From positions 62,001-126,000 of the forward strand of contig JASBUG010000023.1 in assembly GCA_030148025.1 (NCBI GenBank): DNA of 64,000 nt, written 5' to 3'. Both the position numbers and the translations under genes were made by a program. Below, piece by piece: positions 1 through 26,170 of the stretch. The notes under the pieces were generated by a model. The model was not told the origin of the DNA and ran no database searches. It saw nothing but the letters and a program-made list of their open reading frames with translations. Origin of the DNA: Flavobacteriaceae bacterium. Lineage in GTDB: Bacteria > Bacteroidota > Bacteroidia > Flavobacteriales > Flavobacteriaceae. Positions within the stretch are counted from its first letter, which is position 1; every line of letters starts with the position of its first letter.

Positions 1-479
1 TCAGTATTATTTTCATTTTTGAAAGTAGTTATATAACAAGTTTTAGGGATTACTAAGTTGCTTTTAGATTTAAATGTTAAATCCAAAGAAGTGTCATAAA
101 AGTCCTTTTGGCGTATCACTTTTAGAGATTGTTCCCATTTCAACTGTGATTTTTTAACTAAAAAAGAGCTAAAAGGTTTATCAATAATGTCTGTTTGAAG
201 CATTGACAATATATTACATGTCTGTTGATTTGTCATTTGAATTATACCATTCTCGTCTATTATGAAACTCATTTGGACTGTTTGACGAATTATTTTGTTA
301 GTGTTTACGTATCCCTGATGTAGCATTGTTTCTTGGATCTCTTCAGCCAGCATGTTGAGAGTAATGACTAGCGCTTCTATATTGTCATTTTTTTTAGACC
401 GCTTAAGGCGATAGAAGAAATTACCAGAAGCCATTTCTAGTAACATATGGTTTATTCGACGCATCCTTTTTTTAGTCAT
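1..479 (-). CDS. PAS-like regulator or sensor, cut by the window edge
   Basis: An open frame of 159 codons begins with ATG at 479 and runs off the left edge without a stop. It opens with MTKKRMRRINHMLLEMASGN and continues into a segment (about residues 65-150) reading like a PAS fold: SFIIDENGIIQMTNQQ, then a hydrophobic stretch, then a charged KVIRQKDFYD segment. Bacteroidota PAS proteins of this shape often end in a DNA-binding domain, but that end is not visible. It lies 78 bp behind the STAS-like gene on the same strand, so the two may be co-transcribed. They diverge from the synthase-GNAT gene at 1146. A sensor-regulator role is inference. Confidence 0.6.
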   Translation of the reverse strand, partial: MTKKRMRRINHMLLEMASGNFFYRLKRSKKNDNIEALVITLNMLAEEIQETMLHQGYVNTNKIIRQTVQMSFIIDENGIIQMTNQQTCNILSMLQTDIIDKPFSSFLVKKSQLKWEQSLKVIRQKDFYDTSLDLTFKSKSNLVIPKTCYITTFKNENNT

Positions 480-557
480 AACTAATTATTTAATTAACAG
501 AACATTGCTTTAATCGGAGGTAGGGTAAAGAAAATAGTGAGATTTTGGGTTCCAGGT

Positions 558-944
558 TTATGCTGTTGAACTTTTGTAAGTGTTTAAAAAGGTCAAGGCC
601 TCTTCAATATTTTCAAATGATCTCGTTGGTATTGGAGGTTTGCTTGTTTGTATATAGAATAAAGATAAAATTTCGGAAACTGGAGGTTCAACAAGAAATG
701 CTACAGCTTTAATTAATGTAGAGCCCTCCAAGGCTAGGTAAGCTCTTGCAGACTTGTTCACTTCTTTAACACCCCGAATATCACACAAAACAGGTAAAAA
801 TTGACTTTCATGGAGTGAAAGCCTGTCCTTTACAATTTGAGCGGCTGCATTTAGATCAATACAAACTCCTTTATGGTAAGTAATATATAGAATACCATTA
901 TCAATACTATACTCTGCATAGTCGTTTTTGAAGTAACTCAACAT
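558..944 (-). CDS. STAS/SpoIIAA-like small protein
   Basis: A 128-aa soluble protein with no signal peptide or membrane segment. Its pattern (short beta strands ILYITYHKG and PVLCDIRG, then helix and strand KAVAFLVEPP, then a C-terminal helix ENIEEALTFLNTY) resembles the STAS/SpoIIAA-like fold annotated as DUF7793 in Flavobacteriia. STAS proteins are usually regulatory partners rather than enzymes. It is transcribed divergently from the oxoamine synthase gene, across a 201-bp gap, and toward the PAS-like gene. A regulatory role in this cassette is inferred from context. Fold assignment is moderate, function unknown. Confidence 0.6.
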   Translation of the reverse strand: MLSYFKNDYAEYSIDNGILYITYHKGVCIDLNAAAQIVKDRLSLHESQFLPVLCDIRGVKEVNKSARAYLALEGSTLIKAVAFLVEPPVSEILSLFYIQTSKPPIPTRSFENIEEALTFLNTYKSSTA

Positions 945-1145
945 TATTGTTAGAAAACTGGTTTATCAATTTAAAATTACGAAAATATCAACATATAAAA
1001 GTTATAATACTCATTGACAGCTGTTATCATTTGGTTTTTATTGTCTGCTAGGGATAAAGAGTTGTCTTTAAAGGATTTAACTGTGGTGTTGTTTTTTATT
1101 TTCCTACAATTGGAGTTAAATTTTATGCTTTCAAAACCGTAAGAG

Positions 1146-3542
1146 ATGGCAAAAATTAAACACAACAATTTTTTGGACACCGTAAATGATGTCTTTACCG
1201 ATGCGAAACAAGAAGGAGTTTTGCATTTATATGCTGAAGGAAGTGAATTCACAGGAAGAATGATTGGAGTTAAAAATAGAAATCTATTTCACTTTGGAAC
1301 AACTGGCTATTTGGGATTAGAACAAGACTATAGGTTAAAAGAAGCTGCTATAAATGCCATAAGAAAATATGGAACTCAGTTTCCCTTGTCAAAGTCTTAC
1401 ATCTCTAATCCACTTTATAAGGAATTAGAAGAAAAAATTGGACAGATGTACCAAAATCCAATCATAATAACAAAGAATAGCACTTTAGGACATTTGGGGG
1501 TTATTCCAAGTGCAGTTAAAGATCAGGACGCCATTATTTTAGACCATCAGGTTCATTGGAGTGTACAGAGTGCAGCAAAAGTATTAAAAAATAGAAGTGT
1601 TCCTATAGATATGATCAGGCACAATGATTTGAATATGTTGGAAGATAAAATTAAATCACTTTCTAATAAAAGGCAAAGAATATGGTATATGGCTGATGGC
1701 ATCTATTCTATGTATGGAGATTATGCGCCTTTGAAGGAGTTAAAAACATTAAGTGCAAAATATCCGCAACTACATTTGTACATTGATGATGTCCATGGAA
1801 TGAGTTGGATAGGTGAGAACGGCACAGGATATGCGCTCAGTGAATTAAAGCAGCTTTCAGAAAATGTATTGCTGTTTGGAACATTGAGCAAAACCTTTGG
1901 AGCAAGTGGAGCCGTTTTGGTTTGCTCTAATAAAAAAAGGTATAACGAGATAAAAACATTTGGAGGCCCTTTGACGTTTTCGGCACAACTTGAACCGGCT
2001 TCTGTTGCCGCGGCTACAGCATCTGCAAAAATTCACTTGTCATCTGAAATATATACGCTACAAAATGATTTGAAAGAAAGAATACGATTCTTTAATACTC
2101 AGCTTGAGCAAACAGACTTACCATTGATTGACAAAAATGATTCACCTGTTTTTTACATCGGTACTGGAATGCCTAAAACAGGATATAACTTTGTGAACCG
2201 TTTAATGAAAGAGGGTTTCTATGTTAATTTAGGAATATTTCCTGCTGTGCCAGTTAAGAATACAGGGGTTCGAATAACCATATCTAGACATAATCAAGAG
2301 GCTGAAATAAAAGATTTAGTAGCGGCAATGGCCTATCATTTTCCAAAAGCTTTAGAAGAAACCCAGACAAATATAAAACGTGTTTATCAGGCTTTTAAGT
2401 TAGAACCTAAGATTAAAACGAAAGAAACGTTTAAAGATACACTTGTAGTGCAACTTGAAGACTCCATTAATAAAATCGATAAAACCCTTTGGAATGAGCT
2501 TCTTGGAAATCAAGGGGTTTATGATTGGGAAGGGCTTAAGTTTCTTGAACAAACTTTTAAAGAGAATGATTTAAAGGAACACAATTGGAAATTTAGGTAT
2601 TTGATCATTTATGATCAGGACAAGTGCCCTATTTTTGCAACTTTTTTAACCTTGGGATTATGGAAAGATGACATGTTAGCTAGTGTAAATGCATCGAAAA
2701 GGATTGAATATGAACGAAGGTCAAAGCCTTATTATTTAACTTCCTATGTGTTAAGTTTGGGTTCTCTTTTCACTGAAGGGAATCACCATTACATAGACGA
2801 AAAACACCCAATGAAACAGTTAGCGTTAAATAAGCTGATGCAAGTATTAGAAGGATTAGAGCAAAAATTTAAAGCTAAAATGGTTGTCCTTAGGGATTTT
2901 CCTGAAAGGGGTAAGTTAAAGGTTTACTTTCAAGGTCAAGGATTCGTAAAGGTTCAAATGCCGAATTCATGTAAAATTGACTTAGTGGATAATGAAACAA
3001 TTGAAATGTATATCGATAAACTTTCTTCAAGGAACAAACGACATTATAGAAAGGAGATATTATTTAATGAACCTCTGCTGAAAATTGAAGTTCTAGATAA
3101 ATGTGATAAAGACCAATTAAATCAAATTCAAGAATTATATAATAATGTTCATCAAAATAATTTGGGCCTGAATACTTTTTCATTCCCAGAGAAACTATTT
3201 ACGAATATGTCAAAACACCCAAATTGGGAATTTATAACAATTTGTCCGCGAGATAAAACTAAAAAGCTAATAGGGGTGATGCTGTGCTATAAAAATGGAA
3301 ATCAAACATATGTGCCTTCTTTTGTAGGGATGGATTATCAATATCTTAGAGAATTTCATACATATAGACAGTTACTCTATCAAACAATAAAGAGAGCGAT
3401 AAACCTAAAGTATAAACACATTGAATTGGGAATGACTGCTTCTTTTGAGAAGAGAAAGTTGGGGGCCACAGTAGAGGAAAAATATGCATATATACAAACT
3501 TCTGACAATTATACTATGGAACTTATGGGGATATTAGAATAA
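1146..3542 (+). CDS. Alpha-oxoamine synthase fused to a GNAT acyltransferase domain
   Basis: A 798-aa two-domain protein. Residues 1-415 are a fold-type I PLP enzyme of the alpha-oxoamine synthase family (BioF, KBL, SPT, CqsA). Visible signs are H137 (the PLP-stacking histidine), the D214-D215-V-H217-G motif, and GTLSKTFGASGA with the Schiff-base lysine K249. This family condenses an amino acid with an acyl-CoA, releasing CO2. Residues ~430-798 look like an Acetyltransf_6/GNAT domain (RNKRHYRKE, ELGMTASFEKRKLGA). BioF itself is about 390 aa and lacks this half. There is no other biotin gene nearby, and the neighbours are PAS, STAS and RteC regulators, so biotin synthesis is unlikely. Production of an amino-ketone or lipid-like signal is plausible but inferred. 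Confidence 0.8.
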   Translation: MAKIKHNNFLDTVNDVFTDAKQEGVLHLYAEGSEFTGRMIGVKNRNLFHFGTTGYLGLEQDYRLKEAAINAIRKYGTQFPLSKSYISNPLYKELEEKIGQMYQNPIIITKNSTLGHLGVIPSAVKDQDAIILDHQVHWSVQSAAKVLKNRSVPIDMIRHNDLNMLEDKIKSLSNKRQRIWYMADGIYSMYGDYAPLKELKTLSAKYPQLHLYIDDVHGMSWIGENGTGYALSELKQLSENVLLFGTLSKTFGASGAVLVCSNKKRYNEIKTFGGPLTFSAQLEPASVAAATASAKIHLSSEIYTLQNDLKERIRFFNTQLEQTDLPLIDKNDSPVFYIGTGMPKTGYNFVNRLMKEGFYVNLGIFPAVPVKNTGVRITISRHNQEAEIKDLVAAMAYHFPKALEETQTNIKRVYQAFKLEPKIKTKETFKDTLVVQLEDSINKIDKTLWNELLGNQGVYDWEGLKFLEQTFKENDLKEHNWKFRYLIIYDQDKCPIFATFLTLGLWKDDMLASVNASKRIEYERRSKPYYLTSYVLSLGSLFTEGNHHYIDEKHPMKQLALNKLMQVLEGLEQKFKAKMVVLRDFPERGKLKVYFQGQGFVKVQMPNSCKIDLVDNETIEMYIDKLSSRNKRHYRKEILFNEPLLKIEVLDKCDKDQLNQIQELYNNVHQNNLGLNTFSFPEKLFTNMSKHPNWEFITICPRDKTKKLIGVMLCYKNGNQTYVPSFVGMDYQYLREFHTYRQLLYQTIKRAINLKYKHIELGMTASFEKRKLGATVEEKYAYIQTSDNYTMELMGILE

Positions 3543-3575
3543 AACTCCAATTGTTAATTTGAGGTCTGTATTGAT

Positions 3576-4415
3576 GTGAAATACCAAGAGTTAATAGTTG
3601 AATTTGAGGCAAAGTTGGAAGCCCTGGAGTCCTGTAATGGTGATGTTTTGTATAAAGCAGAAACAGGAATTACACATACTGAGAAATGTATGAAGCATCT
3701 AAGGAGAAGTGTCGTTGATAAAGGGTTTCAGTCTGTTCAGGACGAGATATGGTTTTTTAAACATATTAAACCTCAAATATTTAGTAAGCTAATATATTAT
3801 GTGAAATTATATAATATTGAAAGTAAACGTCCCAGAAGTAGTTCTAAATTTCAAATAAAATATCTAAATAATCAGATCAATAAACTTCAGGTATACTTTA
3901 ATGATAATTTGGAGTTTTATCACTACTACAGAAGAGGAGCAACTACATTAGATGAACAATATTTTGTAAGGGGGAAATCGGACTTGAGGTCTCCTACGGA
4001 ATCATTTCATTTTTTTATAGATGAAGAATTTTCAACCTGTCAGGATTGTACAGTGGCTACTATTATGGCTTTCGATATGCTCATTGTTTATTTACAACAA
4101 GAAATTGAGAAATTGGAAAGCAGTACTGAGAACATTAAAATAAATCCAATGAAGCAATCATCAAAGCTTTTCTGGACGGGAAGCAAAACAGAATTAATCG
4201 AATTAATATATGCCTTGCATAGCAGTGGTGTAATCAATAGTGGGACGGCAGAAATCAAGGAGATGGCTTCCCTTTTTGAACAAATATTTAATATCGATTT
4301 AGGAAATTACTATCATACTTTCATAGAGATCAGAGCAAGGAAATGTAGTAAAACAAAGTTTTTGGATAGACTAATTGAGGTGTTAAATAAACGCTTTGCT
4401 GAGTTGGATGAATGA
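3576..4415 (+). CDS. rteC: RteC-family regulator of conjugative-element excision
   Basis: A 279-aa protein matching the RteC family (FVRGKSDLRSPTESFHFFIDEEFSTCQDCTVATIMAFDML in the middle, and KLFWTGSKTELIELIYALHSSG plus GTAEIKEMASLFEQIF toward the C terminus, the winged-helix part). In CTnDOT, RteC binds upstream of the xis genes and switches on excision. Here it lies directly upstream of an excisionase-like HTH gene, which fits. The start is taken as GTG at 3576, 33 bp after the synthase stop, so it is probably co-transcribed with the synthase-GNAT gene. That linkage ties the synthase to element control. Confidence 0.85.
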   Translation: MKYQELIVEFEAKLEALESCNGDVLYKAETGITHTEKCMKHLRRSVVDKGFQSVQDEIWFFKHIKPQIFSKLIYYVKLYNIESKRPRSSSKFQIKYLNNQINKLQVYFNDNLEFYHYYRRGATTLDEQYFVRGKSDLRSPTESFHFFIDEEFSTCQDCTVATIMAFDMLIVYLQQEIEKLESSTENIKINPMKQSSKLFWTGSKTELIELIYALHSSGVINSGTAEIKEMASLFEQIFNIDLGNYYHTFIEIRARKCSKTKFLDRLIEVLNKRFAELDE

Positions 4416-4683: not shown

Positions 4684-4962
4684 ATGGGAGCAACAATTAT
4701 CACTACGGAAGATCTTCGGGAGTTCAAATTGGAATTACTCGATGAATTAAAACAATTAATTAACCAGCAATTAGGACAACCTGCTAAAAAATGGTTAAAG
4801 TCTCCAGAAGTGAGAGAGCTACTTGGGGTCTCTCCAGGAACATTACAGAATCTTAGAGTTAATGGTACACTTCCTTATACAAAGGTAGGAGGTATTTTAT
4901 ATTACGATTATCACGAGATTATGAATGTGCTGGAAGCCAATAGAATTCATAATAAATTCTGA
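4684..4962 (+). CDS. Excisionase-like helix-turn-helix protein
   Basis: A 92-aa protein with an N-terminal helix (LREFKLELLDELKQLINQQL) followed by a MerR-type/HTH_17 DNA-binding region: KWLKSPEVRELLGVSPGTLQ, then NGTLPYTKVGG and YDYHEIMNVLE. Proteins of this build in Bacteroidota mobile elements act as Xis-like or regulatory DNA-bending factors. It follows the RteC gene and the inverted repeat at 4419-4572, and its 3' end overlaps the next reading frame, so it heads a short operon with the replication-type pair. Family recognition is good. The precise role (excision, transfer or replication control) is inferred. Confidence 0.75.
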   Translation: MGATIITTEDLREFKLELLDELKQLINQQLGQPAKKWLKSPEVRELLGVSPGTLQNLRVNGTLPYTKVGGILYYDYHEIMNVLEANRIHNKF

Positions 4963-5494
4963 GCAATTGGAGCAAATAAATTATATTAAGCACCTTAATG
5001 GAGTATTTATGCAATTTTCAAAGGATGGGAGATTGAACCCTACTCACATTAGTCTGTATTTGGCTCTATTTCAATTATGGAATAATTATCACTTTCCTGA
5101 AGAGTTTTACATCAACAGGCAAGAAGTTATGAGGTTTTCAAAAATTGGATCTAAGTCCACCTACCACAAGTGTATAAAGGAATTAAGTCATTGGAACTAT
5201 TTGTTGTATATACCTTCTCACAACCCCTTTCGTGGGAGTCAAATTAAGATGTTTCAATTTGGGACAAGTCCGGAACAAGTACTGTGCTTGGACCATACCA
5301 ATTTTGAAACAAGTAATGAACAAGTAATAGTATCTAAAATCAAACAAGAACAAACTATACAAAACAATAATAAAAGGCAAAATCAGAAAAAAATAGATTT
5401 AAAGGATATTGATGGAAAAAAACAAAATGAGGTTGGCCTATATGAAGATAACCTAAAGACTAGTTTGGATAAAAATTACAATGATCCATTATGA
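4925..5494 (+). CDS. Winged-helix replication-type protein of the ICE
   Basis: A 189-aa reading frame with a conserved core (RLNPTHISLYLALFQLWN, FYINRQEVMRFSKIGSKSTY, KCIKELSHWNYLLY) that looks like a winged-helix DNA-binding domain, followed by a low-complexity, Q/N/K-rich tail from about residue 125. Such proteins sit beside DnaC-like ATPases in Bacteroidota ICEs. Start choice is uncertain: ATG 4925 overlaps the HTH gene by 38 bp, while ATG 5009 begins just before the conserved core. The stop overlaps the start of the ATPase by 4 bp (ATGA), indicating translational coupling. A role as an initiator or helicase-loader partner is inferred. Confidence 0.7.
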   Translation: MCWKPIEFIINSEQLEQINYIKHLNGVFMQFSKDGRLNPTHISLYLALFQLWNNYHFPEEFYINRQEVMRFSKIGSKSTYHKCIKELSHWNYLLYIPSHNPFRGSQIKMFQFGTSPEQVLCLDHTNFETSNEQVIVSKIKQEQTIQNNNKRQNQKKIDLKDIDGKKQNEVGLYEDNLKTSLDKNYNDPL

Positions 5495-6165
5495 CCAAAA
5501 TTCAACCACATATAATAGTTGAAGGTAGTGTTCAATATGAGCTCGGAGAATTACGAGGAAATGTGATCAACTATGATTTTGAAAAGCTACTTATTTACCT
5601 TAATGCAAAGGGTAAATTGTTGTTTGGGAAAACATTTAAAATCTATGTAGAAGATCATGATATTATTTTTAAGTTGTGTAACTATTTTATAAAAGAAGAA
5701 AAAAATTGTGAACGCTTGAATATTGATGTAAATAAGGGGATTTTATTATCTGGTCCTGTGGGTTGTGGTAAAACAAGTTTAATGAGGTTAATGAGATATA
5801 TTGTACCACTTCAAAAACCGTATAAAATTATTCCGGCCAGAAATATAGTGTTTGGATTTAATCATATTGGATATAAGATCATTGAAAGTTATGGTAATGG
5901 TCAGTTTTTTTGTTTTGATGATTTAGGAGTAGAGCCTGTTGGCAGGCATTATGGAAAGGATTGTAATGTCATGGGAGAAGTTATACTATCGCGTTATGAT
6001 TTGTTCTCTTTTCCAGATCCCGCTCGAAGAATTAAAACACACGCTACAACGAATCTTAATGCGCAAGAACTTGAAGAACGTTATGGAAATCGCGTTCGAT
6101 CTAGAATGAGAGCGATGTTTAATTTAATTGGGTTTGAAAAGAGAAGTAAGGACAAGAGAGTGTAA
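5491..6165 (+). CDS. DnaC-like AAA+ ATPase
   Basis: A 224-aa ATPase with a clear Walker A GPVGCGKTS (residues 88-96, K94) and Walker B FCFDDLG (D143-D144), followed by a sensor-1-like THATTNLN and an arginine-rich C terminus (RYGNRVRSRMRAMFNLI). The build matches DnaC/DnaI helicase-loader proteins rather than IstB, as no transposase adjoins it. It is translationally coupled to the winged-helix protein. The pair suggests that the element loads a host replicative helicase, consistent with the transient plasmid-like replication known for several ICEs. That use is inference. Confidence 0.8.
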   Translation: MTKIQPHIIVEGSVQYELGELRGNVINYDFEKLLIYLNAKGKLLFGKTFKIYVEDHDIIFKLCNYFIKEEKNCERLNIDVNKGILLSGPVGCGKTSLMRLMRYIVPLQKPYKIIPARNIVFGFNHIGYKIIESYGNGQFFCFDDLGVEPVGRHYGKDCNVMGEVILSRYDLFSFPDPARRIKTHATTNLNAQELEERYGNRVRSRMRAMFNLIGFEKRSKDKRV

Positions 6166-7052: not shown

Positions 7053-7229
7053 GGTCTGACAATTTTTTTATGGCAAAATCAATAAAATTTAGCATTGTTT
7101 AAATTCAATTAAGTCCATATAGTGTTAAAATTTATTTTTCATTTAAAATATTGAAAATCAGCTAATTATATTTAAATATAGTGTATTTTTCACATATCAA
7201 AAATGATTAAAAATAAAAGCCATTTTAAG

Positions 7230-7517
7230 ATGAAAAAATCAATTAATTTATTAGCTCTTTTATTCTTTTTCTCAATCTCCACTTTTGCTCAAATTGGAGG
7301 TATAGAAGATTCTGTCAATGAGGTGTCCGATACTATTCGGGCTATTTTTCCTATTATTTTGGGAGTTATTTTTCTTATCGGTTTCCTTTTTAATGCAGGA
7401 CACTTTTTTGGTGAAAACGCTGATTTAAAGAAAGGAATTACGCGTGTATTAGTATTCGTTCTTATAGCTGGTGCGGTAGTGGGGATTTTTACTTATCTCA
7501 TTGGCATCGTGGTTTAA
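7230..7517 (+). CDS. traE: Conjugative transposon protein TraE (DUF4134, pilin-like)
   Basis: A ~95-aa protein with a signal peptide (MKKSINLLALLFFFSISTFAQ) and two hydrophobic segments (IFPIILGVIFLIGFLFNAGHFF and VLVFVLIAGAVVGIFTYLIG) separated by a short polar loop GENADLKKG. This is the layout of DUF4134/TraE and of VirB2-type pilins. An upstream in-frame ATG at 7203 adds nine residues, but the start at 7230 gives the canonical signal peptide and is preferred. It is the first gene of the plus-strand tra operon, followed within ~35 bp by traF. Confidence 0.85.
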   Translation: MKKSINLLALLFFFSISTFAQIGGIEDSVNEVSDTIRAIFPIILGVIFLIGFLFNAGHFFGENADLKKGITRVLVFVLIAGAVVGIFTYLIGIVV

Positions 7518-7552
7518 TTTTTTAGAAACTCCAAAAATAAACTGTGATGATT

Positions 7553-7837
7553 ATGAAACGGTATGAGGTCTATAAAAATATTAGAAAACAAGCCATGATC
7601 ATTGGGTTACCAATTTCATTGTTTGCACTAATGATGACCTTTGTTATCAGCTCATTATTATTCGTCATTTTTTCTTTCAGTCTTTTAGTTATTATTGGTG
7701 CATTTGTGTGTAATGTGACTCTTTATTTTGCTTTAATAAAAGTTGCTGCCAATCCAATGGTATTAAATCTTAAAAGAGTGTTTCCTGATTTAATTAGTAA
7801 CAAAAAAGCAAGTCAGCTAAACTATGAAGAAGATTAA
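7553..7837 (+). CDS. traF: Conjugative transposon protein TraF (DUF4133, VirB3-like)
   Basis: A ~94-aa inner-membrane protein: short cytoplasmic N terminus (MKRYEVYKNIRKQA), two closely spaced membrane helices (residues ~18-65), and a C-terminal tail with NPMVLNLKRVFPDL. Size, topology and position between traE and the VirB4-type ATPase match TraF/VirB3. The frame opens with GTG at 7544 and has ATGs at 7547 and 7553, with 7553 giving the most typical N terminus. Its end overlaps traG by 14 bp, so the two are translationally coupled, as is common for the VirB3/VirB4 partners. Confidence 0.83.
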   Translation: MKRYEVYKNIRKQAMIIGLPISLFALMMTFVISSLLFVIFSFSLLVIIGAFVCNVTLYFALIKVAANPMVLNLKRVFPDLISNKKASQLNYEED

Positions 7838-10223
7838 CCTAACAGCTTATTATCCTATATTGGATATTCAAGGACACATTGTGTTTGCTAACAATGGAAA
7901 TGTTGTTCTATGTTATAGATTAGAATTGCCGGAAATTTATACTTTATCCTCGTTAGATTTTGATGATATACATGGTTCTTGGTTTCAAGCTTTTAAGTCT
8001 CTGCCCGTAGGTGCTGTTATTCATAAACAAGATGTTTATAAGAAGAAGAAATATTCAGCTGACCAGCTATCAAAAAATAGCTTTTTGGCGAGCGCTACAT
8101 ATAATTACTTCAAAGGGAGAGAGTATATTGAGCATACAAGTTATTTGTTTTTTATTCTACCATTTAACAAGACTCTGAATGCTTCTAAGTTTATTAATCC
8201 GTTTAAGAAAGCAAGTAAAGGAATTCATCAAAAAATGAATTATACACTGCGTGAATTTATTAACTCGGTAAATGATACGATTTCTTTTATTAATAACAGT
8301 CGGAAAGTGTTTTTGTTACCAATGGACGCTGATAAAATTCTGGAATTAACCAATACATACTTTAATGGATTTAATGAAGGTTTTGATACCGATGTTCAAT
8401 TGAAGAAATCAAATATTGAAATAGGCAAGAAGTACTTTGATATTTTGGCTGTAAATAATGAACTGTGTTTTGGTGATGCCGTTAAAAGTTCCAAAATCAA
8501 CGAAAAGTTTACTTCAGATGATTTTGTATTCTATCAAGGTTTTATAGACGGTCTGGGTTTGAGCCTTAATGAAAACCATATTGTAAATCAAATTGTCTAT
8601 TTAGATGATAAGCATAAATGGAGAAAACGCCTAAATAAGAAAATTGAAGAGCTTAATAAGAGCTCAAATTTTGGCACTCAAAATAAAGTTGTTTTAAAAA
8701 AGATTAAGGCAATAGTGGCTAAAATTAATGAGGATGATTCTGCATGTATTATTCGAGGGCACCTTAATATTATTTTCTGGACTTCTGAAGCTTCAGAACT
8801 AGACAATATTGCATCTAAAATAAAGACAGAATTCAAGGAATTAGATATTATACCATATTACCCAAAAGGGGAAGAACGTAAACATTATTTTTTGAACTCT
8901 TACTTTTGTTTTTCATCCAACTTTTCTAATGAAGATTTATATGTTACAGATTTAAAGCATTCGCTATGTCTCTTTATAAATAATACAAACTATAAGTCAG
9001 ATAATGTAGGTGTTATTTTCAATGACCGGCAACATAACATTCCTGTTTTAAAGGATGTATGGGATGAACAAAAAAAACGGATTAAGGCACGTAATTTTGC
9101 GATATTTGCTCCAACGGGAGAAGGGAAGTCATTTTTAGCAAATAATATTCTTCGTCAATACTTTGAAAGCCATGTTCGTTTGGTAATAATTGATTTGGGA
9201 GGATCGTATTCTAAATTTGCAAAACTATATCCAAATGATCATATTATTCTTCGTTATGAGCAAGGAAAGAATTTAGGAATTAACCCTTTTTATATTTCTT
9301 GTTTAGATGATTTAACAGCTGAACGCTTAGAAGATCTTGTTGTTTTTCTATTAGAACTAATGGCTGATGGAAACAACCTGTCAAAATCAAAGGAAGTTGC
9401 TGTTAAAAAGGTATTACTCCATTATTATACCTGTATTAGAAAAGCACATTCCCTGGCTTCTTTATATCAATTTGTAGATGATAAAAAAGACACACTTTTA
9501 GATGAATTAAAACTTCGGGAAGAACATTTTAATATTTATAATTTTTTACACATTCTATCTGAATATGTAGGTGATGGTCTTTATAGCTTTTTATTCAATA
9601 TTAATGCTGATCAGACGTACAAAATTGAAGATAAGCGTCTGATTGTCTTTGAGCTTGATGAAATTAAGGATAACAAGGAAATACTGTCAGTAATGTTGAA
9701 ACTGATAAAGTCTGCAATACAAAGAACTATTTGGCAAAATCGATCCGAAAGGGGAATTATTCTTTTTGATGAATTTGCTAAACAGCTCAAATTCGGAAAT
9801 GTATTAGAAAGTGTTGAGTTCTACTATCAAGCGATTCGAAAACAAAATGGAGCTATTGGAATTATTCTGCAATCCATTAATCAACTTCCAAATAATTCTA
9901 CCTCGGCAAGTATTCTTGAAAATACTCAAGTAATTTATAGTCTTCGTAATGAAAAAGGTTATGATGAATTACAAAAGCGATTGAATCTTTCAAGTCATGA
10001 TTTAAACCAATTAAGGTCCATACGAAACAATTTAATCGGAACAAGAAAGTATACCGAAATGTTTATTAAAATAGGTAAGGAAAGCAATGTTTTTAGATTA
10101 GAGGTTCCCAAAGAAGTTTATGCTGCTTATCTCACTGATGGTAAGGAAAGTGACGATATTATGAGAATATATGAACAAACAAATGATATGGAAGAAGCGA
10201 TTAAGAAATTTATAAAACAGTAA
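7824..10223 (+). CDS. traG: VirB4-type conjugation ATPase TraG
   Basis: A 799-aa ATPase of the TraG/VirB4 family that powers assembly of the type IV secretion mating pore at the inner membrane. Walker A APTGEGKS lies at residues 429-436 and Walker B GIILFDEFAK with D649-E650. Further family signs are VIIDLGGSYSKF after Walker A and the arginine/glutamine-rich IRKQNGAIGIILQSINQLP after Walker B. The N-terminal ~400 residues form the VirB4 N-domain. Length is near the ~800-830 aa of CTnDOT TraG. The gene is intact, with no frameshift, so the module may be functional. Confidence 0.93.
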   Translation: MKKINLTAYYPILDIQGHIVFANNGNVVLCYRLELPEIYTLSSLDFDDIHGSWFQAFKSLPVGAVIHKQDVYKKKKYSADQLSKNSFLASATYNYFKGREYIEHTSYLFFILPFNKTLNASKFINPFKKASKGIHQKMNYTLREFINSVNDTISFINNSRKVFLLPMDADKILELTNTYFNGFNEGFDTDVQLKKSNIEIGKKYFDILAVNNELCFGDAVKSSKINEKFTSDDFVFYQGFIDGLGLSLNENHIVNQIVYLDDKHKWRKRLNKKIEELNKSSNFGTQNKVVLKKIKAIVAKINEDDSACIIRGHLNIIFWTSEASELDNIASKIKTEFKELDIIPYYPKGEERKHYFLNSYFCFSSNFSNEDLYVTDLKHSLCLFINNTNYKSDNVGVIFNDRQHNIPVLKDVWDEQKKRIKARNFAIFAPTGEGKSFLANNILRQYFESHVRLVIIDLGGSYSKFAKLYPNDHIILRYEQGKNLGINPFYISCLDDLTAERLEDLVVFLLELMADGNNLSKSKEVAVKKVLLHYYTCIRKAHSLASLYQFVDDKKDTLLDELKLREEHFNIYNFLHILSEYVGDGLYSFLFNINADQTYKIEDKRLIVFELDEIKDNKEILSVMLKLIKSAIQRTIWQNRSERGIILFDEFAKQLKFGNVLESVEFYYQAIRKQNGAIGIILQSINQLPNNSTSASILENTQVIYSLRNEKGYDELQKRLNLSSHDLNQLRSIRNNLIGTRKYTEMFIKIGKESNVFRLEVPKEVYAAYLTDGKESDDIMRIYEQTNDMEEAIKKFIKQ

Positions 10224-10239
10224 TTAAAAAAGAACAATT

Positions 10240-10821
10240 ATGAAAAATACATTTACAACATTTGTTGGCATATTTGCCCTAGCCGTTTTGTTTCCTATAC
10301 GAGGAACATGTCAAGGGATGCCAGTCTATGACAATACAAATTTTATCAGTTTTACTAAATCTTTAATTGAGTCGGCTAAACAAACCTCTCAATTATTAAA
10401 AACAGTTCAGTTCTTAAAGGACCAAAAGGATAATATTGAAAAAGTCAATAATGTCATAAAACAGCTTAAAGCGGTCAGAGAGTTGACTAAAAACAATCAG
10501 CGTCTTTTTGAATTGGTACAACGTGATTTAAGAGAGATTCTTAATTCACCTTACATAAAGTCTAATGAGATCAACCGAATATCGGAATCCTTCAATGAAA
10601 TTATTGAAAATTCATTGGACGGCTTGGAGTATATAGATCAAATATTATCCAATAATAACCTCAAAATGACAGATGCAGAACGGGCTGAAGTTCTTAAAGA
10701 GATGGAGCTGCAATCTAAAGAGATGGTTGTTGAAGTAGAAGCTAAAACTAAACGCTATCGAGAGATTATAGCTTTTCGTGAATTGCAACATAAAATTAAT
10801 AATAGAGAAACTAAATACTAA
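10240..10821 (+). CDS. traI: Conjugative transposon protein TraI (DUF4141, VirB5-like)
   Basis: A 193-aa exported protein: signal peptide MKNTFTTFVGIFALAVLFPI ending near TCQG, then a largely helical, coiled-coil-prone body (QLLKTVQFLKDQKDNIEKVN, ELVQRDLREI, VEVEAKTKRYREI). This is the shape of DUF4141/TraI proteins, thought to be periplasmic VirB5-like components. It sits 16 bp after traG. Its TAA overlaps the ATG of traJ by one base, showing tight translational coupling. The name follows CTnDOT and is unrelated to the F-plasmid relaxase TraI. Confidence 0.85.
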   Translation: MKNTFTTFVGIFALAVLFPIRGTCQGMPVYDNTNFISFTKSLIESAKQTSQLLKTVQFLKDQKDNIEKVNNVIKQLKAVRELTKNNQRLFELVQRDLREILNSPYIKSNEINRISESFNEIIENSLDGLEYIDQILSNNNLKMTDAERAEVLKEMELQSKEMVVEVEAKTKRYREIIAFRELQHKINNRETKY

Positions 10822-11663
10822 TGGCAAGAATTTTTTTAGGTATTGGGTTAGAATATATTGATGCAGTTTTTACTACTATCAAGGATAGTCAATTTTCTCA
10901 GTATACCATTACAGGAATGAAAACGCTAGCCATTTTATTCTTTCTTATTAATATTCTAAAAAAATATAATGAAGGAGTGGCCAATGATGAGGGATACACT
11001 TGGGGATTGACTCCCTCAGAGTTGGCAAAGAATTTTGCTGTTGTCATTTTAGTGATTTTCTCTACACAGATATTGGGTGTTTTCGATAGTATCTTAGTTG
11101 CTATCGAAACCCAATATCGAGAAACAGCTCCCGCACTTCTCCCTTTACAATTACAAGAGATTGATATAGAGCAAGATGTAGGATCGTTAGAAGCCGCCAA
11201 AAAAGCCCTGGCCGTTTTGTATGAAGCATTAATTACTCCTTTATTTGGATTAAGAATGCTCGCCTTTATGATGGGAATGTTTTTGTGGTTGATTGACCTT
11301 TTTATCTATCCTTTATTCTTGGCAGAGCGTTATTTTCTATTAGGTATTATGCAAGCCTTTTTTCCACTGGTGATTAGTTTGGCGGTGTTTGAAAAGTTTA
11401 GATCATTGGCATATAACTTTTTTAAACTATATGCCGGAGTCTATATGTTAGTTCCTGCTTTTTTCTTGGTCAATATCTTTGTCAATAATCTTTACACTGA
11501 AATTAATACAAATTTTTGGAGCAATCTATTTGGAACAGATTGGGGAAGCGGTTATTTCTCTTCTTTGTTACAATTTGGTTCTATTGGGTTTATTGTGCTT
11601 CTCAAATTTAAACTCTACCGGAAAGCAACTTCGTTTGTTTTTAGACTTTTCTCAGGTGGATGA
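10821..11663 (+). CDS. traJ: Conjugative transposon protein TraJ (VirB6/TrbL-like)
   Basis: A 280-aa polytopic membrane protein with about six or seven hydrophobic segments, including TLAILFFLINILKK, NFAVVILVIFSTQI, LRMLAFMMGMFLWLIDLFIY, AFFPLVISLAVFEKF, YMLVPAFFLVNIFV and FGSIGFIVLLKFKLY. Topology and position between traI and traK identify it as TraJ, the VirB6/TrbL-like inner-membrane channel component. It is a little shorter than the roughly 330 aa of CTnDOT TraJ. Only 16 bp separate it from the traK start. Confidence 0.85.
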   Translation: MARIFLGIGLEYIDAVFTTIKDSQFSQYTITGMKTLAILFFLINILKKYNEGVANDEGYTWGLTPSELAKNFAVVILVIFSTQILGVFDSILVAIETQYRETAPALLPLQLQEIDIEQDVGSLEAAKKALAVLYEALITPLFGLRMLAFMMGMFLWLIDLFIYPLFLAERYFLLGIMQAFFPLVISLAVFEKFRSLAYNFFKLYAGVYMLVPAFFLVNIFVNNLYTEINTNFWSNLFGTDWGSGYFSSLLQFGSIGFIVLLKFKLYRKATSFVFRLFSGG

Positions 11664-11679
11664 TCTAAATAAACTTGTT

Positions 11680-12306
11680 ATGAAAACACCATATAAAAAT
11701 ATTTATAATGTACTGAAATTGAATAGATTTGTCGTTTTTGTTGTCGTCATTGGAGCTACATTGACATGTGTTATTTCTGTGTTATCTGTAATAAAAATTT
11801 ACAGGCAAACAGTTAATAGTGCTTTTGTGGTAAACACAGATGGAAGTGTTATTCCAGTTAAACTTGTCTCACAAAGAGAAAATTTAAATGTTGAAGCACT
11901 TGCGCATTTAGAGCTCTTTCACAGGTGTTTTTATCATATTGATGCTACTAATTATGAAAATCATCTGAAGAAGGCATTATGGCTAGGAAATAGTACTATA
12001 GATGGCTTATATAAGCAGAAAAAGGCTGATGGCGTGTATAATAGACTGATTCAATATTCATTGGTGCAAAAGGTTCTTAGTGTTGAGTCTATAATTAATA
12101 TTGAAAAAGAACCCTATAAGTTTGAAACAAAAACAGTTTTTGAAATTAATAGAGGTTCAGTTGTAGATACTTATGAGTTGACCACCTTAGGAGGCCTAAT
12201 TCATGTTGATAGAAACTTTCCGAATAATCCTCACGGCTTATTAATTACCAATTTTTTTGAAAAGACTTTGAGAAAGCTAGAAAATTATGATGAATCTGAT
12301 CTTTAG
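11680..12306 (+). CDS. traK: Conjugative transposon protein TraK (VirB8-like)
   Basis: A 208-aa bitopic protein starting at ATG 11680 (MKTPYKNIYNVLKLNRFVVF), the size of CTnDOT TraK (~207 aa). The frame stays open upstream to 11479, but that part overlaps traJ and reads as its shadow, so the later start is chosen. One membrane helix covers residues ~15-40, followed by a periplasmic domain of VirB8/NTF2-like type (HLELFHRCFYHID, LVQKVLSVESIINI, YELTTLGGLIHVDR). VirB8-like proteins nucleate the mating-pore complex. Confidence 0.87.
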   Translation: MKTPYKNIYNVLKLNRFVVFVVVIGATLTCVISVLSVIKIYRQTVNSAFVVNTDGSVIPVKLVSQRENLNVEALAHLELFHRCFYHIDATNYENHLKKALWLGNSTIDGLYKQKKADGVYNRLIQYSLVQKVLSVESIINIEKEPYKFETKTVFEINRGSVVDTYELTTLGGLIHVDRNFPNNPHGLLITNFFEKTLRKLENYDESDL

Positions 12307-12343
12307 AAGTTTAAATGTCTAATGAATGTAAAAAATAAAATAG

Positions 12344-13276
12344 ATGGCAATAAAAAAGAATAAAATCGTGTTTGCGGGCATCATTTTATGTGTGGTGCTT
12401 TTTATTGGTTCATACACCTTTATAGTGATTAGTGATCATGAAAAACCAATTATAAACGGGAATCAAATACCTGTTCCCAAACTTCAGGACTCTCAAAAAG
12501 AATATAAATCTAAATTGGAGGCGCTGGAAGATATAAAAGAGATTAGGCAAAACAATGCTCCAAGTGTTTATGATGAACGCCTATTAGATTCTACCGGGAT
12601 TTATGATCCGGACTTATTAGATAAGGAAAAGATGCGAATTGTTGATAGTATCTATAGTCAAGGAAAGATTAATTATTCAGAAGAGTCTTATAGGAAGACT
12701 ATAATTGATAGAGAATCTAAAATAGAAATTAAGGAAGATATAATTTCAAATACTCTGGAGGAAGAATCACTAATAGATATTAAAGAAATGGGTTTGGGGC
12801 ATCAGTTGTTTTTTACCTCTAACCCAGTTAAGAATTCTACTAAATTAAGCCAAATTACTGATTCATTAATTATTGTGAGAGTAGACGGCACCCAAACGGT
12901 TAAGCAGAATCATAGACTGCAAATGCGTTTAATGAATAATACAAGAATAAATGGGGAATATCTACCTAGAAATTCACTCATCTATGGATTTATAAAGTTT
13001 CAGCCAAATCGTACTTTGATTTCAATTGAGCACATTAATCATCAAGTAGTGAAGCTAAGTGCACACGATTTTCAGGATGGAAATGAAGGAATTTATATAG
13101 AAAACAGCTTTAGGTCTGAAGTTAGACAACAATTGATCAATGATGCCATTAATGATATTAACATTACTGGAGTTCCACAAGTAAGTGGTGTTAAAAAAAT
13201 ATTTCAACGTAATAATCGCAATGTCAAAGTAACCATAGCTGACAATTATCAATTAATCTTAAAACTTAAAGAATGA
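12344..13276 (+). CDS. traM: Conjugative transposon protein TraM (VirB10-like)
   Basis: A 310-aa protein with one N-terminal membrane helix (VFAGIILCVVLFIGSYTFIV), a charged linker to about residue 165, and a C-terminal beta-rich domain (IIVRVDGTQTVKQNHRLQMR, RNSLIYGFIKFQPNRTLISI, IADNYQLILKLK) typical of TraM. VirB10-type proteins link inner and outer membranes in the mating pore. It is clearly shorter than CTnDOT TraM (~450 aa), the difference falling in the linker. The stop overlaps the traN start by 4 bp. Confidence 0.83.
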   Translation: MAIKKNKIVFAGIILCVVLFIGSYTFIVISDHEKPIINGNQIPVPKLQDSQKEYKSKLEALEDIKEIRQNNAPSVYDERLLDSTGIYDPDLLDKEKMRIVDSIYSQGKINYSEESYRKTIIDRESKIEIKEDIISNTLEEESLIDIKEMGLGHQLFFTSNPVKNSTKLSQITDSLIIVRVDGTQTVKQNHRLQMRLMNNTRINGEYLPRNSLIYGFIKFQPNRTLISIEHINHQVVKLSAHDFQDGNEGIYIENSFRSEVRQQLINDAINDINITGVPQVSGVKKIFQRNNRNVKVTIADNYQLILKLKE

Positions 13277-14070
13277 AGATTCTAATATTATTTTCAATAC
13301 TGTTTAGTTTAACATTGAACGGACAGCAAAAGCTAGATACCATCTATGCTAATGAGTACAAGAATGTAGCGATGTTTTTTCCGAAGCCTATTCGTCAGGG
13401 AATAACCGGAGCTTCTAATTTCGTTTTCACTTATAATAGGGAAAAGGAACAATATTTTGGATTACTAAAGGCACAACCAGGAACTGAGAGCAATTTGTTG
13501 GCTGTTACAAATGATGGACAAGTGTATTCCTATATATTAAAATATGCTAAAGTACTTCCTAAATTGAATTATTTTATTGACAATAAGGAAAGTATAGGTA
13601 ATGAATCTTCTAGAGTTATTTTAGAAAAGAGTGATACCAAACCTATTACTCAATTCAGTAATAGAATTACTTTTATTGAAAAATTTTGTAACTATTTGCT
13701 GAAGTTGGATCCTGAAACTTTAAAAACAAAAAGAAAGAACGGCTTAAAACTACAATTGCAACAGATAATGTATCAAGGTAATGAAGTATATTTAGTTCTG
13801 GACTTTGAGAACAATTCGGAAATTAACTTTGAAGTCGATTATCTTAATGTTTATAGGGTTAACGGAAATAAAAAACGTAAGTCTTCATTTCAAAAATTAC
13901 AGCAAGAAATTATTTATAAGCACATATTTCCATCTAATGTAAAAAGTAAAAAGTCTGCAAGATTTGTATTTGTCTTGCCAAAGTTTGTATTAGGGGTTAA
14001 CGAAAAACTAATGATAGAAATGAAGGAGTTGAGTGGTAATAGGAGGGTGGATTTGAGGACGAGATTCTAA
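13273..14070 (+). CDS. traN: Conjugative transposon protein TraN (DUF4138, VirB9-like)
   Basis: A 265-aa exported protein: signal peptide MKILILFSILFSLTLNGQQ, then a beta-rich domain with YKNVAMFFPKPIRQGITGAS and FGLLKAQPGTESNLLAVTND, matching DUF4138/TraN, the outer-membrane-associated VirB9-like partner of TraM. A second part (residues ~150-265) contains VYLVLDFENNSEINFEVDYL and ARFVFVLPKFVLG. It is the last tra gene seen. Convergent int follows only 56 bp away, so traO-traQ are absent at this end. Confidence 0.83.
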   Translation: MKILILFSILFSLTLNGQQKLDTIYANEYKNVAMFFPKPIRQGITGASNFVFTYNREKEQYFGLLKAQPGTESNLLAVTNDGQVYSYILKYAKVLPKLNYFIDNKESIGNESSRVILEKSDTKPITQFSNRITFIEKFCNYLLKLDPETLKTKRKNGLKLQLQQIMYQGNEVYLVLDFENNSEINFEVDYLNVYRVNGNKKRKSSFQKLQQEIIYKHIFPSNVKSKKSARFVFVLPKFVLGVNEKLMIEMKELSGNRRVDLRTRF

Positions 14071-14125: not shown

Positions 14126-15349
14126 TCATTCGTTATTAAAACTAAATTTTTCTCTCAAAATTTTCATATCATCACTCACCTTTCTGTCCAATATTTTAGC
14201 ATAATGCTGTGTAGTTCTTAACGATTTATGACCTAACATTTTGCTTACTGATTCAATCGGAATGCCATTTGAGAGGGTCACAGTTGTTGCGAATGTATGG
14301 CGTGCTAAATGGAAAGTCAAATTCTTGTGAATTCCACATAGATCGGCAATCTCTTTCAAGTAAGCATTCATTTTTTGGTTACTTAAAACTGGTAGAACAT
14401 GATCAGAATTCAAAATTTCAAGATTGGTACTGTATTTCTTTATTAAAGCTTCGGCTATAGGTAGAATCGGGATATTACTTCTAGTATCTGTTTTTGTTCT
14501 TGTTGTCTTGATCCATTGCTCACCATCAATTCCTACAACAATATCACTTTTAGAAAGCTTTTTGACATCGGAAAAAGCGAGTCCAGTAAAACAACAAAAA
14601 ACAAATATGTCTCGGACCTGATCTAATCGTTTAATTTTAAATTGTTTATTCATCATATTTTGAATTTCAACATCAGTAAGAAACTCTCGATTTACAGGTT
14701 TTAGTCTCATTTTTCGATTGAAGAAAGGATCTTTACTTATCCAATCGTTAGCATAGGCAATACGAATGATTTTTTTGAAGTTTGTAATATATTTCATTGC
14801 AGAATTGTGATTACAATTTCTTTCTGTTTTCAAGTAATACTCAAAACCGTCAATGAATTTATTATCGACATCTTTAATGGGAATATCATTTAGATTATAT
14901 TCCAATTTAATATACGTTTCAAGATGCTTTTTTGCAGTTTTATACTTTTTAATGGTGCTGCTCGCGAAATCTGCTTTTAAATTCTCTATTTGATTATTGT
15001 GATTTTGAAAGATGGCTAGTAGCATTTTTTCCTTCTCATATTTTCCTTGATATATGTCACGCAATTTTACAGCACTAACTGTTTTATTTTCATCAATTAG
15101 TCTCTCATATATTTTATAGATTTTATTGGTTATTATATCTATATACCGATTGGTGTTTTTAGCTTCTTGAGAGTTACCTTTAACTCTTCCAATCTTATTG
15201 ATCCATTTATCGGCGTCTACTTTTCTTCTTATACTTAATTCTGATCTTTTACCATTTAAGGTTATTCTTAAATAGATATTGGCTTTATTATTTTCATCAG
15301 ATTTGCTGCGTTTTATGTAAAAAAGGAGAGAGAGTAAATTTTGCATCAT
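14126..15349 (-). CDS. int: Tyrosine recombinase (integrase) of the ICE
   Basis: A 407-aa phage-type integrase with an N-terminal arm-binding domain (residues 1-105), a SAM-like core-binding domain (~110-215) and a catalytic domain. Visible catalytic residues are H347-x-x-R350 in HLARHTFA, H374 in MLGHKSLRTT and the nucleophile Y383 in QHYAK. The first-arginine motif, normally TGLR, reads TGLAFSDVKKL, a known peculiarity of many Bacteroidota recombinases including IntDOT. It is transcribed away from ssrA and convergent to the tra operon. Position near the element end and the tmRNA 3' end supports a role in integration and excision. Confidence 0.92.
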   Translation of the reverse strand: MMQNLLSLLFYIKRSKSDENNKANIYLRITLNGKRSELSIRRKVDADKWINKIGRVKGNSQEAKNTNRYIDIITNKIYKIYERLIDENKTVSAVKLRDIYQGKYEKEKMLLAIFQNHNNQIENLKADFASSTIKKYKTAKKHLETYIKLEYNLNDIPIKDVDNKFIDGFEYYLKTERNCNHNSAMKYITNFKKIIRIAYANDWISKDPFFNRKMRLKPVNREFLTDVEIQNMMNKQFKIKRLDQVRDIFVFCCFTGLAFSDVKKLSKSDIVVGIDGEQWIKTTRTKTDTRSNIPILPIAEALIKKYSTNLEILNSDHVLPVLSNQKMNAYLKEIADLCGIHKNLTFHLARHTFATTVTLSNGIPIESVSKMLGHKSLRTTQHYAKILDRKVSDDMKILREKFSFNNE

Positions 15350-15563: not shown

Positions 15564-15586
15564 GTTTTGAGGTGATACTCAAATTG

Positions 15587-15980
15587 TGGAGTCGCCGAGA
15601 ATCGAACTCGGGTCCAAACAAGCTACCAAAGTGCTTTCTACACGCTTAGTTTTTATTTGGTTTTCGATAATAAGCTGATTAAAAACTACCTACTTATTAC
15701 TTAGCTTTTTTAGTTTCGAATTTTTATCAAAGCACTAAAAATTCTAGGTTTACTTTTACGATGCCTCTAAGTAGAACGCCATAAACCAAGGCTTTCAAGA
15801 GACATTTAGCTTGCGCACCTAGTGCGCCGAGGCTTGAACTTACTATAATTCAGTTATTAAGCAGCTAAAGCGTAGTTATTCTCGCCGTTTAAAATTTGAC
15901 ATAGCCTTTTACGCGTTTCAATATCATTACGCGACGTGCTTACAGTTTAATACAACTCGCTGTCAAAACCAGTCGACCCC
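15587..15980 (-). ncRNA. ssrA: Transfer-messenger RNA (tmRNA)
   Basis: The minus strand starts GGGGTCGACTGGTTTTGACA at 15980 and ends in a T-arm (CCGAG TTCGATT CTCGG) and acceptor strand CGACTCC plus A73 at 15587. The acceptor stem GGGGTCG/CGACTCC pairs over all 7 bp with one G-T wobble. The internal reading frame gives the proteolysis tag GENNYALAA followed by TAA (about 15,878-15,850), a known Bacteroidota tag. The 3' CCA is not encoded (CAA follows), so it must be added by the CCA enzyme, a candidate for which is at 48513-49937. tmRNA rescues stalled ribosomes. A GTTTCTA/TAGAAAC hairpin at 15997-16014 lies in the 5' leader. Confidence 0.96.
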
Positions 15981-22152: not shown

Positions 22153-22878
22153 GTCGTGTTTTTCTAATCGAAGTGTGATACGTCTTAAAATTTCTGTGGC
22201 TTGAGTTTTATAGCGTTTTATCATTGCCAGATGATTATCAGATGCTAGCATGTTGTGTAAAGCAACACGTTTTCTGTAATCTTCACTTTCGGTAAAATAG
22301 ATGACCATGTCGTCGTTAAACTTGCCTAAGCTTAGATCTACAAACCATGAATACTCCTTTAATTCGTTTAAGTTTTTCATGACTTCATTTTCTAAGCGTT
22401 GATTGTTTTTCTCAATAAGAGGTTTAAAAAGTGTATGAACTTGAATGATAGAGGTAACAAGACTGTCTTTCTGACTCGTATTTTGATTTGAGATGTTCTT
22501 TAATAGTTCAACACCTTTATTTTGAATGTTAAATGGTGCATAAAATGTAGTTAGTGAAGGACATTGCGGACAATCTTTATAGTTTTCTTTTTTTAGTTTT
22601 TTATTAATTATAAGATTGCTTTTTACCTTAAGAGTATCATATAACCTTGCAATTTGTCCAGCTACAAGCGTGTCTGTTTCTAAGTCATATTTAATGGTTC
22701 GAAGTACACTTGCTAATTCATTGTTTTTCTTTCTGGTTTCATTCCAATTATTAACTTGTAATGCTAGTAAAATACCTATCATTACCAGAAAAATTTCTCC
22801 TAGGGCATATAGAATATACCGACTTACTTTATTGTCTTTAATCATATTTTGACGTATGTTTCTAAATATTTTTAACAT
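22147..22878 (-). CDS. DUF6090-family membrane protein
   Basis: A ~243-aa protein starting best at ATG 22878 (MLKIFRNIRQNMIKDNKVSR). An upstream in-frame ATG at 22926 overlaps the small membrane-protein frame more deeply. One membrane helix near residues 25-45 (YALGEIFLVMIGILLALQVN NWNE in two parts) is the hallmark of DUF6090, common and often multi-copy in Flavobacteriaceae. The rest is helical with a CPQC motif near residue 108. No function is known for the family. Confidence 0.8.
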   Translation of the reverse strand: MLKIFRNIRQNMIKDNKVSRYILYALGEIFLVMIGILLALQVNNWNETRKKNNELASVLRTIKYDLETDTLVAGQIARLYDTLKVKSNLIINKKLKKENYKDCPQCPSLTTFYAPFNIQNKGVELLKNISNQNTSQKDSLVTSIIQVHTLFKPLIEKNNQRLENEVMKNLNELKEYSWFVDLSLGKFNDDMVIYFTESEDYRKRVALHNMLASDNHLAMIKRYKTQATEILRRITLRLEKHDL

Positions 22879-22990
22879 TGCTATCGTCTTTTTGCTCTTT
22901 TTTGATTTTAATATAGCCATTAACAAGTCGCACGCCTAAGCGTGCGAACAATATTATTGCTATTACCATGACAATGTCAAACCCGTTCAT
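22862..22990 (-). CDS. 42-aa single-pass membrane protein between the VPS10 and DUF6090 genes
   Basis: A complete frame begins at ATG 22990, one base after the TAG of the VPS10 gene, and stops at TAG 22862, overlapping the DUF6090 start by 17 bp. It starts MNGFDIVMVIAIILFARLGV, a membrane helix, then a basic/acidic tail (YIKIKKEQKDDS). The tight coupling on both sides suggests that it is translated as part of one operon. An 8-bp hairpin TCGCACGC/GCGTGCGA (22928-22947) lies within it, unusually GC-rich for the region. No family recognised. Confidence 0.5.
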   Translation of the reverse strand: MNGFDIVMVIAIILFARLGVRLVNGYIKIKKEQKDDSNVKNI

Positions 22991-22991
22991 G

Positions 22992-25900: not shown

Positions 25901-26135
25901 TCCAAACACCGCCTCCTGTTGTTCCCATATAATAGGTGTGTGGTTGCCCCACAACACCAGATGAAGTGACACTTCGACCACCACGAAAAGGACCAATATT
26001 ACGCCATTTTAACCCGTTAAATTCTTTGTTGTCTACTAATTTTATTGGTTCTTTCGTTTTTTTGCTTCTTTTTTGCGCAATTGAATTTATAGGCAAAAGA
26101 AAAACACAAAGGGCAAGGAGTTTGAATAATTTCAT
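22992..26135 (-). CDS. VPS10/BNR-repeat beta-propeller protein (sortilin-like)
   Basis: A 1047-aa exported protein with signal peptide [20 protein letters not shown] and at least eight BNR/Asp-box repeats of the form S-x-D-x-G-x-T-W (for example [48 protein letters not shown]) across residues ~40-720, forming paired propellers as in sortilin and xyloglucanases. Residues ~780-1047 carry a FlgD-like beta segment ([19 protein letters not shown]-type wording) and a helical tail. Databases often call it a glycosyl hydrolase, but no catalytic residues can be assigned here. It is the first gene of a likely three-gene unit with the two small membrane proteins. Confidence 0.82.
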
Positions 26136-26170
26136 TTGGTTGGTTTTTTAAATTGGTTTGCATAAAGATA

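Follow-up and report, generated by a model that had tools for sequence, protein, structure and literature searches.

A gene cassette with a fused alpha-oxoamine synthase upstream of rteC as a possible regulator of ICEs in Flavobacteriaceae

Results

Gene order of the cassette and its ICE

The window analysed here, a whole stretch of 64,000 nucleotides from the genome of a Flavobacteriaceae bacterium, begins with four genes and a putative operator, followed by ICE genes up to a tmRNA gene (Table 1). The genes for DUF7793 and PAS-AraC are divergent from those for the synthase and RteC. As described in the original prediction, the synthase is a 798-aa fusion with a GNAT part in which K249, H137 and H217 are intact, and the RteC gene follows 33 bp behind it, as confirmed by the ORF coordinates and by a match to PF09357 that places its product in the RteC family. 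The two divergent genes had been described as STAS-like and PAS-like. The first encodes a DUF7793 protein predicted by structural modelling to fold like SpoIIAA, whereas the second does contain a PAS domain and, when read leftwards past the edge of the window as had been proposed, turned out to be a complete 324-aa transcription factor with matches to HTH_18 and also to HTH_AraC (2.4e-12). The identity of this gene as a histidine kinase or RteA was ruled out, as it encodes a PAS-AraC transcription factor and not a kinase.

Table 1. Coordinates of the cassette and of the surrounding ICE features within the window.
Feature	Position	Strand	Evidence and remarks
PAS-AraC gene (HAMP-like/PAS-AraC transcription factor), N-terminal half in window	3..479	-	Continues left to C3:61505; 324 aa; same as L004:9505-10479; HTH_18 3.7e-19, PAS_9 8.9e-6
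DUF7793 protein, predicted SpoIIAA/STAS fold	558..944	-	PF25056 1.1e-45; AlphaFold pLDDT 88.7; Foldseek top match SpoIIAA-like 2q3l, E 8.6e-6
Putative PAS-AraC operator, two TTRTCTNNNNNGGATTA half-sites 21 bp apart	1041..1078	+	Pair score 37.4
Synthase fusion, 798 aa	1146..3542	+	ORF; both domains in all of the best 80 of 428 relatives
Alpha-oxoamine synthase domain, aa 1-400, PLP lysine K249	1146..2345	+	PF00155 3.7e-27; NF005697 277 bits, below the 342-bit cut-off; tree
Double-GNAT FemABX-like transferase domain, aa 421-798	2406..3542	+	PF13480 in 53/55 and PF04339 in 34/55 members; model pLDDT 91.0; VIA Z 21-22 to FemX, FemA, Sbb17
RteC, probable last gene of the synthase operon	3576..4415	+	PF09357 4.2e-85; 33 bp downstream of synthase
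HTH_17 excisionase-like protein, conserved ICE gene behind RteC	4684..4962	+	PF12728 3.3e-9
Two conserved ICE backbone genes (189 aa; 224 aa, ATPase-like)	4925..6165	+	Kept behind RteC in most loci; no Pfam match
Conjugation genes including TraG (7824-10223), TraM (12344-13276) and DUF4138 TraN-like protein (13273-14070)	7203..14070	+	Pfam
ICE tyrosine integrase	14126..15349	-	PF00589 1.4e-16, PF13102, PF17293
tmRNA gene, right edge of ICE, probable integration site	15586..15980	-	ARAGORN

The location in an ICE, also part of the original prediction, is supported by the tyrosine integrase beside the tmRNA gene, by TraG, TraM and DUF4138, and, to the left of the window, by a coupling protein and a DUF5712 protein. 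The position of the integrase suggests that ssrA, the tmRNA gene, is the integration site. A search for att repeats at the ends of the ICE gave no convincing pair, the left repeat not being found. Farther to the left of the cassette, contig C3:1-40000 carries metal-efflux-like genes, among them one for a 1444-aa transporter at 22651-26985. The same genome has a second copy of the cassette on another ICE-like region, the two synthases being 71% identical, and a third RteC gene (G000:C29:234255-234911) that has no synthase.

The PLP half is separate from known alpha-oxoamine synthases

In an alignment of nine homologues, K249, H137 and H217 are invariant, as is R376, and all four align with residues that are catalytic in the E. 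coli enzymes BioF, Kbl and SPT. The PF00155 match, together with the conserved Lys, His, Asp and carboxylate-binding Arg, places the PLP half in the alpha-oxoamine synthase superfamily. Within this superfamily, it scores under every equivalog cut-off, including those of the BioF, SPT, Kbl and CqsA models: 169 bits for BioF (TIGR00858, cut-off 426), 166, 152 and 119 bits for the NCBIfam SPT models (cut-offs 500, 640 and 670) and 76 bits for CqsA/LqsA (NF005526, cut-off 428), the weakest match among the relatives listed.

A tree was built with BioF, Kbl and SPT as references, CqsA being judged by its NF005526 score. The PLP half lies there on a long branch, in a clade separate from those of BioF, Kbl and SPT that is joined by one lone relative. 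A lone relative of this half (38%), found in genome G037, has no recognisable GNAT gene adjoining. Identity with BioF is ruled out by the curated cut-off and the tree, and a CqsA-like identity by the curated cut-off. As had been noted from the start, no biotin gene is near the synthase. The fold is also that of the enzymes for the CqsA/LqsA quorum signals, as the original prediction pointed out; a product of the CqsA type is nevertheless unlikely, given that none of the listed relatives resembles the enzyme less than CqsA does.

The C-terminal half is a predicted double GNAT

The presence of a GNAT part was confirmed, although its description had to be corrected to a double GNAT of the FemABX type. 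The predicted structure of this half shows two GNAT folds in tandem, as in the FemABX/double-GNAT fold, and its matches to FemX, FemA and Sbb17 extend over 273-303 residues at 12-14% identity (VIA Z about 21-22), whereas N-myristoyltransferases rank lower (Z 17-18). The CoA loop QxxGxG is not conserved in this half, being present sporadically in 11/87 sequences, which would be compatible with aminoacyl-tRNA as the donor. A comparison with the bacterial ceramide synthase homologue YghO of E. coli B gave an hhalign probability of 0.3%, in which a single sequence was compared and a remote kinship is possible. A sequence search of the PDB with the GNAT half yielded no match, and a plasmid collection gave matches to the alpha-oxoamine synthase half with no fusion. 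The order of the fused domains suggests a condensation to an alpha-aminoketone followed by its N-acylation or N-aminoacylation.

A 21-bp-spaced repeat marks the promoters of the cassette

In the divergent promoter between the DUF7793 and synthase genes, the top-scoring pair of TTRTCTNNNNNGGATTA-like half-sites, a direct repeat, has a 21-bp spacing in 81/82 loci, with a match far better than in shuffled sequence, and in the window this pair is the sole one above the scan threshold. The same pair recurs around 38 bp before mauE in most loci. The whole genome of 3.37 Mb has just three strong pairs, which precede the synthase, mauE and a 79-aa ORF. In a Markov simulation of 3.4 Mb (one strand, two runs) no pair scored above 24, so that about no such sites are expected. 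A pattern search of the same genome with up to three mismatches found seven places and its backwards control thirteen; therefore, the weak matches are noise.

The 79-aa ORF (C3:45376-45615, L193:5376-5615), to the left of the window, adjoins the coupling-protein gene and has no clear Pfam family. Homologues were found in three other sampled genomes, two of which (G103 and G410) carry the cassette and have strong pairs upstream (scores of 35.5 and 37.1), whereas in the genome without the cassette no operator pair was found upstream of the homologue. The small ORF with its operator is thus present in three ICE-bearing genomes, in two of them beside the coupling-protein gene. The promoter of synthase and rteC, mauE and a gene next to that for the conjugation coupling protein are thereby linked by a shared operator.

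The spacing was better kept than the sequence in some diverged loci. Several Flavobacterium cassettes have a different repeat at the same 21-bp spacing, whereas others do not, and two of three loci that have RteC and no synthase keep a 21-bp repeat between the DUF7793 gene and rteC, again with a different sequence; the third (L244) has no such repeat there. In chromosomal cassettes without RteC (L090, L097, L094, L100 and L103), extra operator pairs were found before the gene of an 887-aa outer-membrane protein and before that of a 206-253-aa protein without Pfam match. Direct repeats with a spacing of about two helical turns are the type of site bound by AraC family regulators; from the presence of these putative operators at the expected promoters, we infer that PAS-AraC probably binds the 21-bp repeats. 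As they also precede mauE and, in the chromosomal copies, outer-membrane genes, transfer would be one output among others.

A conserved CATATC...GATATG palindrome, 38 bp before mauE and reaching the mauE start codon, was also observed in 49 loci, and is possibly a second operator or an RNA hairpin.

Genes to the left of the regulator

Further to the left of PAS-AraC lie mauE, a gene for a DUF6520-like peptide, a metalloprotease gene and susD/susC. The 82-aa ORF of the own locus resembles DUF6520 genes, and DUF6520 was confirmed with Pfam in two other loci. Small exported cysteine-bearing proteins of the DUF6520 type were seen behind mauE at L004:8639-8887 and L005:13182-13418, and beside most cassettes. 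Among the best 80 of 428 loci, MauE is present in 64/80, with a small gene adjoining in most of them, and SusC or SusD in about three quarters. The operator before mauE, the DUF6520 peptide gene and the outer-membrane genes looks like the mark of a surface or uptake function rather than of pure transfer control.

These neighbours allow a reading in which the sensed signal would be the exported cysteine-bearing DUF6520 peptide itself, oxidised with the assistance of MauE, processed by the cassette peptidase and taken up through SusC/SusD, while the synthase would make an accessory lipid or modify the system. The frequency of MauE, small gene and SusC or SusD, the two Pfam-confirmed DUF6520 genes and the operator before mauE are in line with such a peptide circuit, which we nevertheless consider improbable, because the sensor is predicted to be cytosolic, neither a peptide-sensing domain nor an importer to the cytosol was seen, and it is DUF7793 and the synthase that accompany the regulator most closely.

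RteC is coupled to the synthase in layout and in evolution

The gap between synthase and rteC has a median of 15 bp in 69 loci, and no terminator-like site was found between the two genes. Because of this short gap and the lack of a terminator-like site, rteC is probably co-transcribed with the synthase, and its likely input is the PAS-AraC promoter via read-through. In a tree of RteC proteins, three changes of the synthase-adjacent label suffice, and 72 synthase-adjacent RteCs form one supported clade. Pairwise distances of synthase and RteC correlate with r = 0.86, compared with 0.67 for RteC and a nearby backbone gene. The RteC of CTnDOT controls excision and transfer genes, and is induced through RteA/RteB (PMC1976400). 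What connects the synthase with RteC is so far the layout of the DNA and the regulation rather than chemistry.

Distribution of the cassette and its separation from RteC

In a genome collection, 428 loci encode a relative of the synthase, far beyond chance. The best 80 of these 428 loci were analysed, a biased sample as they hold the closest relatives; all are records of Flavobacteriaceae or Flavobacteriales, and all cover both synthase domains, the GNAT fusion being universal among them. PAS-AraC was found in 79/80, an adjacent divergent DUF7793 gene in 77/80 and RteC in 69/80, so that the four-gene set proposed in the original prediction does recur across Flavobacteriaceae, mostly beside RteC on ICEs. 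The two outcomes named beforehand as contrary to it, homologues mostly outside ICEs beside biotin genes and a synthase within BioF without a GNAT fusion elsewhere, were not observed. No description of the cassette was found in the open-licence full texts searched, which is weak evidence of absence.

A broader sample took one genome from each of 149 genera of a single family; 16 of these genomes encode 17 synthases, of which, by their coordinates, 13/17 adjoin RteC and 4/17 do not. As RteC is present in 51/149 of these genomes, most RteC genes have no synthase. Strong DUF7793 genes numbered 20, of which 13 have both synthase and RteC, four the synthase only, three RteC only and none neither. 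Each of the three RteC-only loci retains an intact left side of the cassette, with RteC in the position of the synthase; one of them (L244) adjoins sigma-factor-like and SusC genes rather than ICE genes. In 30 RteC loci examined (L106-L135), the slot directly upstream of rteC is occupied by widely different genes, much as at a hot spot where cargo inserts. Some cassettes, a minority, are chromosomal and lack RteC; therefore, control of the ICE is not the sole role of the cassette.

Since other ICEs carry unrelated genes in that slot, the position upstream of rteC alone could reflect a habit of cargo. The main rival reading, which we regard as rather unlikely, is accordingly that of a passenger: a surface or nutrient module (SusC/SusD, peptidase, MauE, DUF6520 peptide, synthase and its own PAS-AraC) would have been inserted by chance upstream of rteC in ICEs, read-through into rteC would be incidental, and the product would be a lipid, a cofactor or a scavenging compound without a role in transfer. 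Chromosomal copies without RteC, the many unrelated genes in the slot and the operators upstream of mauE and, in the chromosomal copies, of outer-membrane and other genes all fit a passenger. It is harder to reconcile with the three loci that keep regulators and RteC without the synthase, with an RteC whose diversification follows that of the synthase more closely than that of the ICE backbone, and with the third operator upstream of a small gene of the ICE, which in 2/3 genomes adjoins the coupling-protein gene.

Discussion

We consider a mobile regulatory cassette to be the best explanation of these data, with about an even chance of being right, and, judging from the arrangement of genes and operator sites, the cassette most likely controls the ICE switch rteC. 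PAS-AraC, encoded together with its SpoIIAA-like partner DUF7793, would bind the half-site pairs 21 bp apart in the DUF7793/synthase-rteC divergent promoter, before mauE-DUF6520 and, in three ICE-bearing genomes, before the small gene. A change in the presumed ligand or in the partner state of PAS-AraC would then raise or lower the expression of the synthase and, by read-through, that of rteC. The enzyme most likely acts in two steps: its PLP half would join an amino acid and an acyl thioester in a condensation that yields an alpha-aminoketone, the nitrogen of which would be acylated or aminoacylated by the FemABX-like half. In the simplest closed circuit, the product of the synthase or a derivative may be the signal sensed by the PAS or the STAS protein.

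PAS domains often bind heme, flavin or metabolites, and this speaks for a different input, in which PAS would respond to redox conditions, to a cofactor or to a metabolite of the host, the product of the synthase would protect the cell, and co-induction of rteC would let the element leave a stressed host. The response of the rte genes of CTnDOT to tetracycline, an outside cue, also agrees with such a stress sensor (PMC1976400). Its probability is low in our judgement, as the enzyme belongs to the regulon of nearly all copies, which fits a product that is made and sensed at least as well.

A more specific form of the regulatory cassette, which we hold to be quite unlikely, is that of a one-protein autoinducer synthase, in which aminoacylation of the alpha-aminoketone by the FemABX-like half would lead to a cyclised signal of the pyrazinone type, sensed by the PAS-AraC of the ICE, so that excision and transfer would depend on how dense the element-bearing cells are. 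In the formation of the Vibrio autoinducer DPO, a pyrazinone, an aminoketone is N-aminoacylated and then cyclises to the signal (PMC12930378), and therefore an N-aminoacylated aminoketone can become a signal.

With the mobile regulatory cassette of these marine flavobacteria, a regulator and its probable binding site can be named together with an enzyme and a target gene, and therefore the transfer trigger becomes directly testable. Genes are spread by ICEs of Flavobacteriaceae among marine, fish and clinical bacteria, and to our knowledge their transfer triggers outside the tetracycline-controlled CTnDOT group are largely unknown. Elsewhere, ICEs are known to be controlled by small molecules. 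Should the enzyme make a signal, it would represent a new class of synthases, and the ICE would be a mobile element that has a small-molecule circuit to itself; even as cargo, the enzyme would be a conserved two-domain family.

Comparison with known systems

Parts of the cassette resemble several known systems. CTnDOT of Bacteroides is likewise an ICE that carries TraG/TraM-type transfer genes and a protein of the RteC family. Comparing the cassette only, apart from the rest of the ICE, CTnDOT has tetQ-rteA-rteB before RteC, whereas here RteC follows the synthase and the PAS-AraC/DUF7793 pair with its 21-bp-repeat operator. With CqsA and LqsA, the enzymes of the CAI-1/LAI-1 type, the synthase shares the alpha-oxoamine synthase fold and the catalytic residues, but it scores far below their cut-off, is fused to a FemABX-like domain and is accompanied by PAS-AraC instead of a sensor kinase. 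The PLP lysine, stacking histidine, aspartate and carboxylate arginine are aligned with those of BioF, Kbl and SPT, although the enzyme falls below the equivalog cut-offs of these three and of cysteate acyltransferase, and forms a long-branch clade separate from BioF, Kbl and SPT. The predicted double-GNAT fold is that of the FemABX aminoacyl-tRNA transferases and of the streptothricin-type peptide synthases Sba18/Sbb17, from which the protein differs by its low identity and by its fusion to a PLP enzyme. Finally, the DPO pathway of Vibrio has no dedicated synthase and uses Tdh and adenylate-forming enzymes, whereas the fused enzyme of the cassette could in principle carry out both steps.
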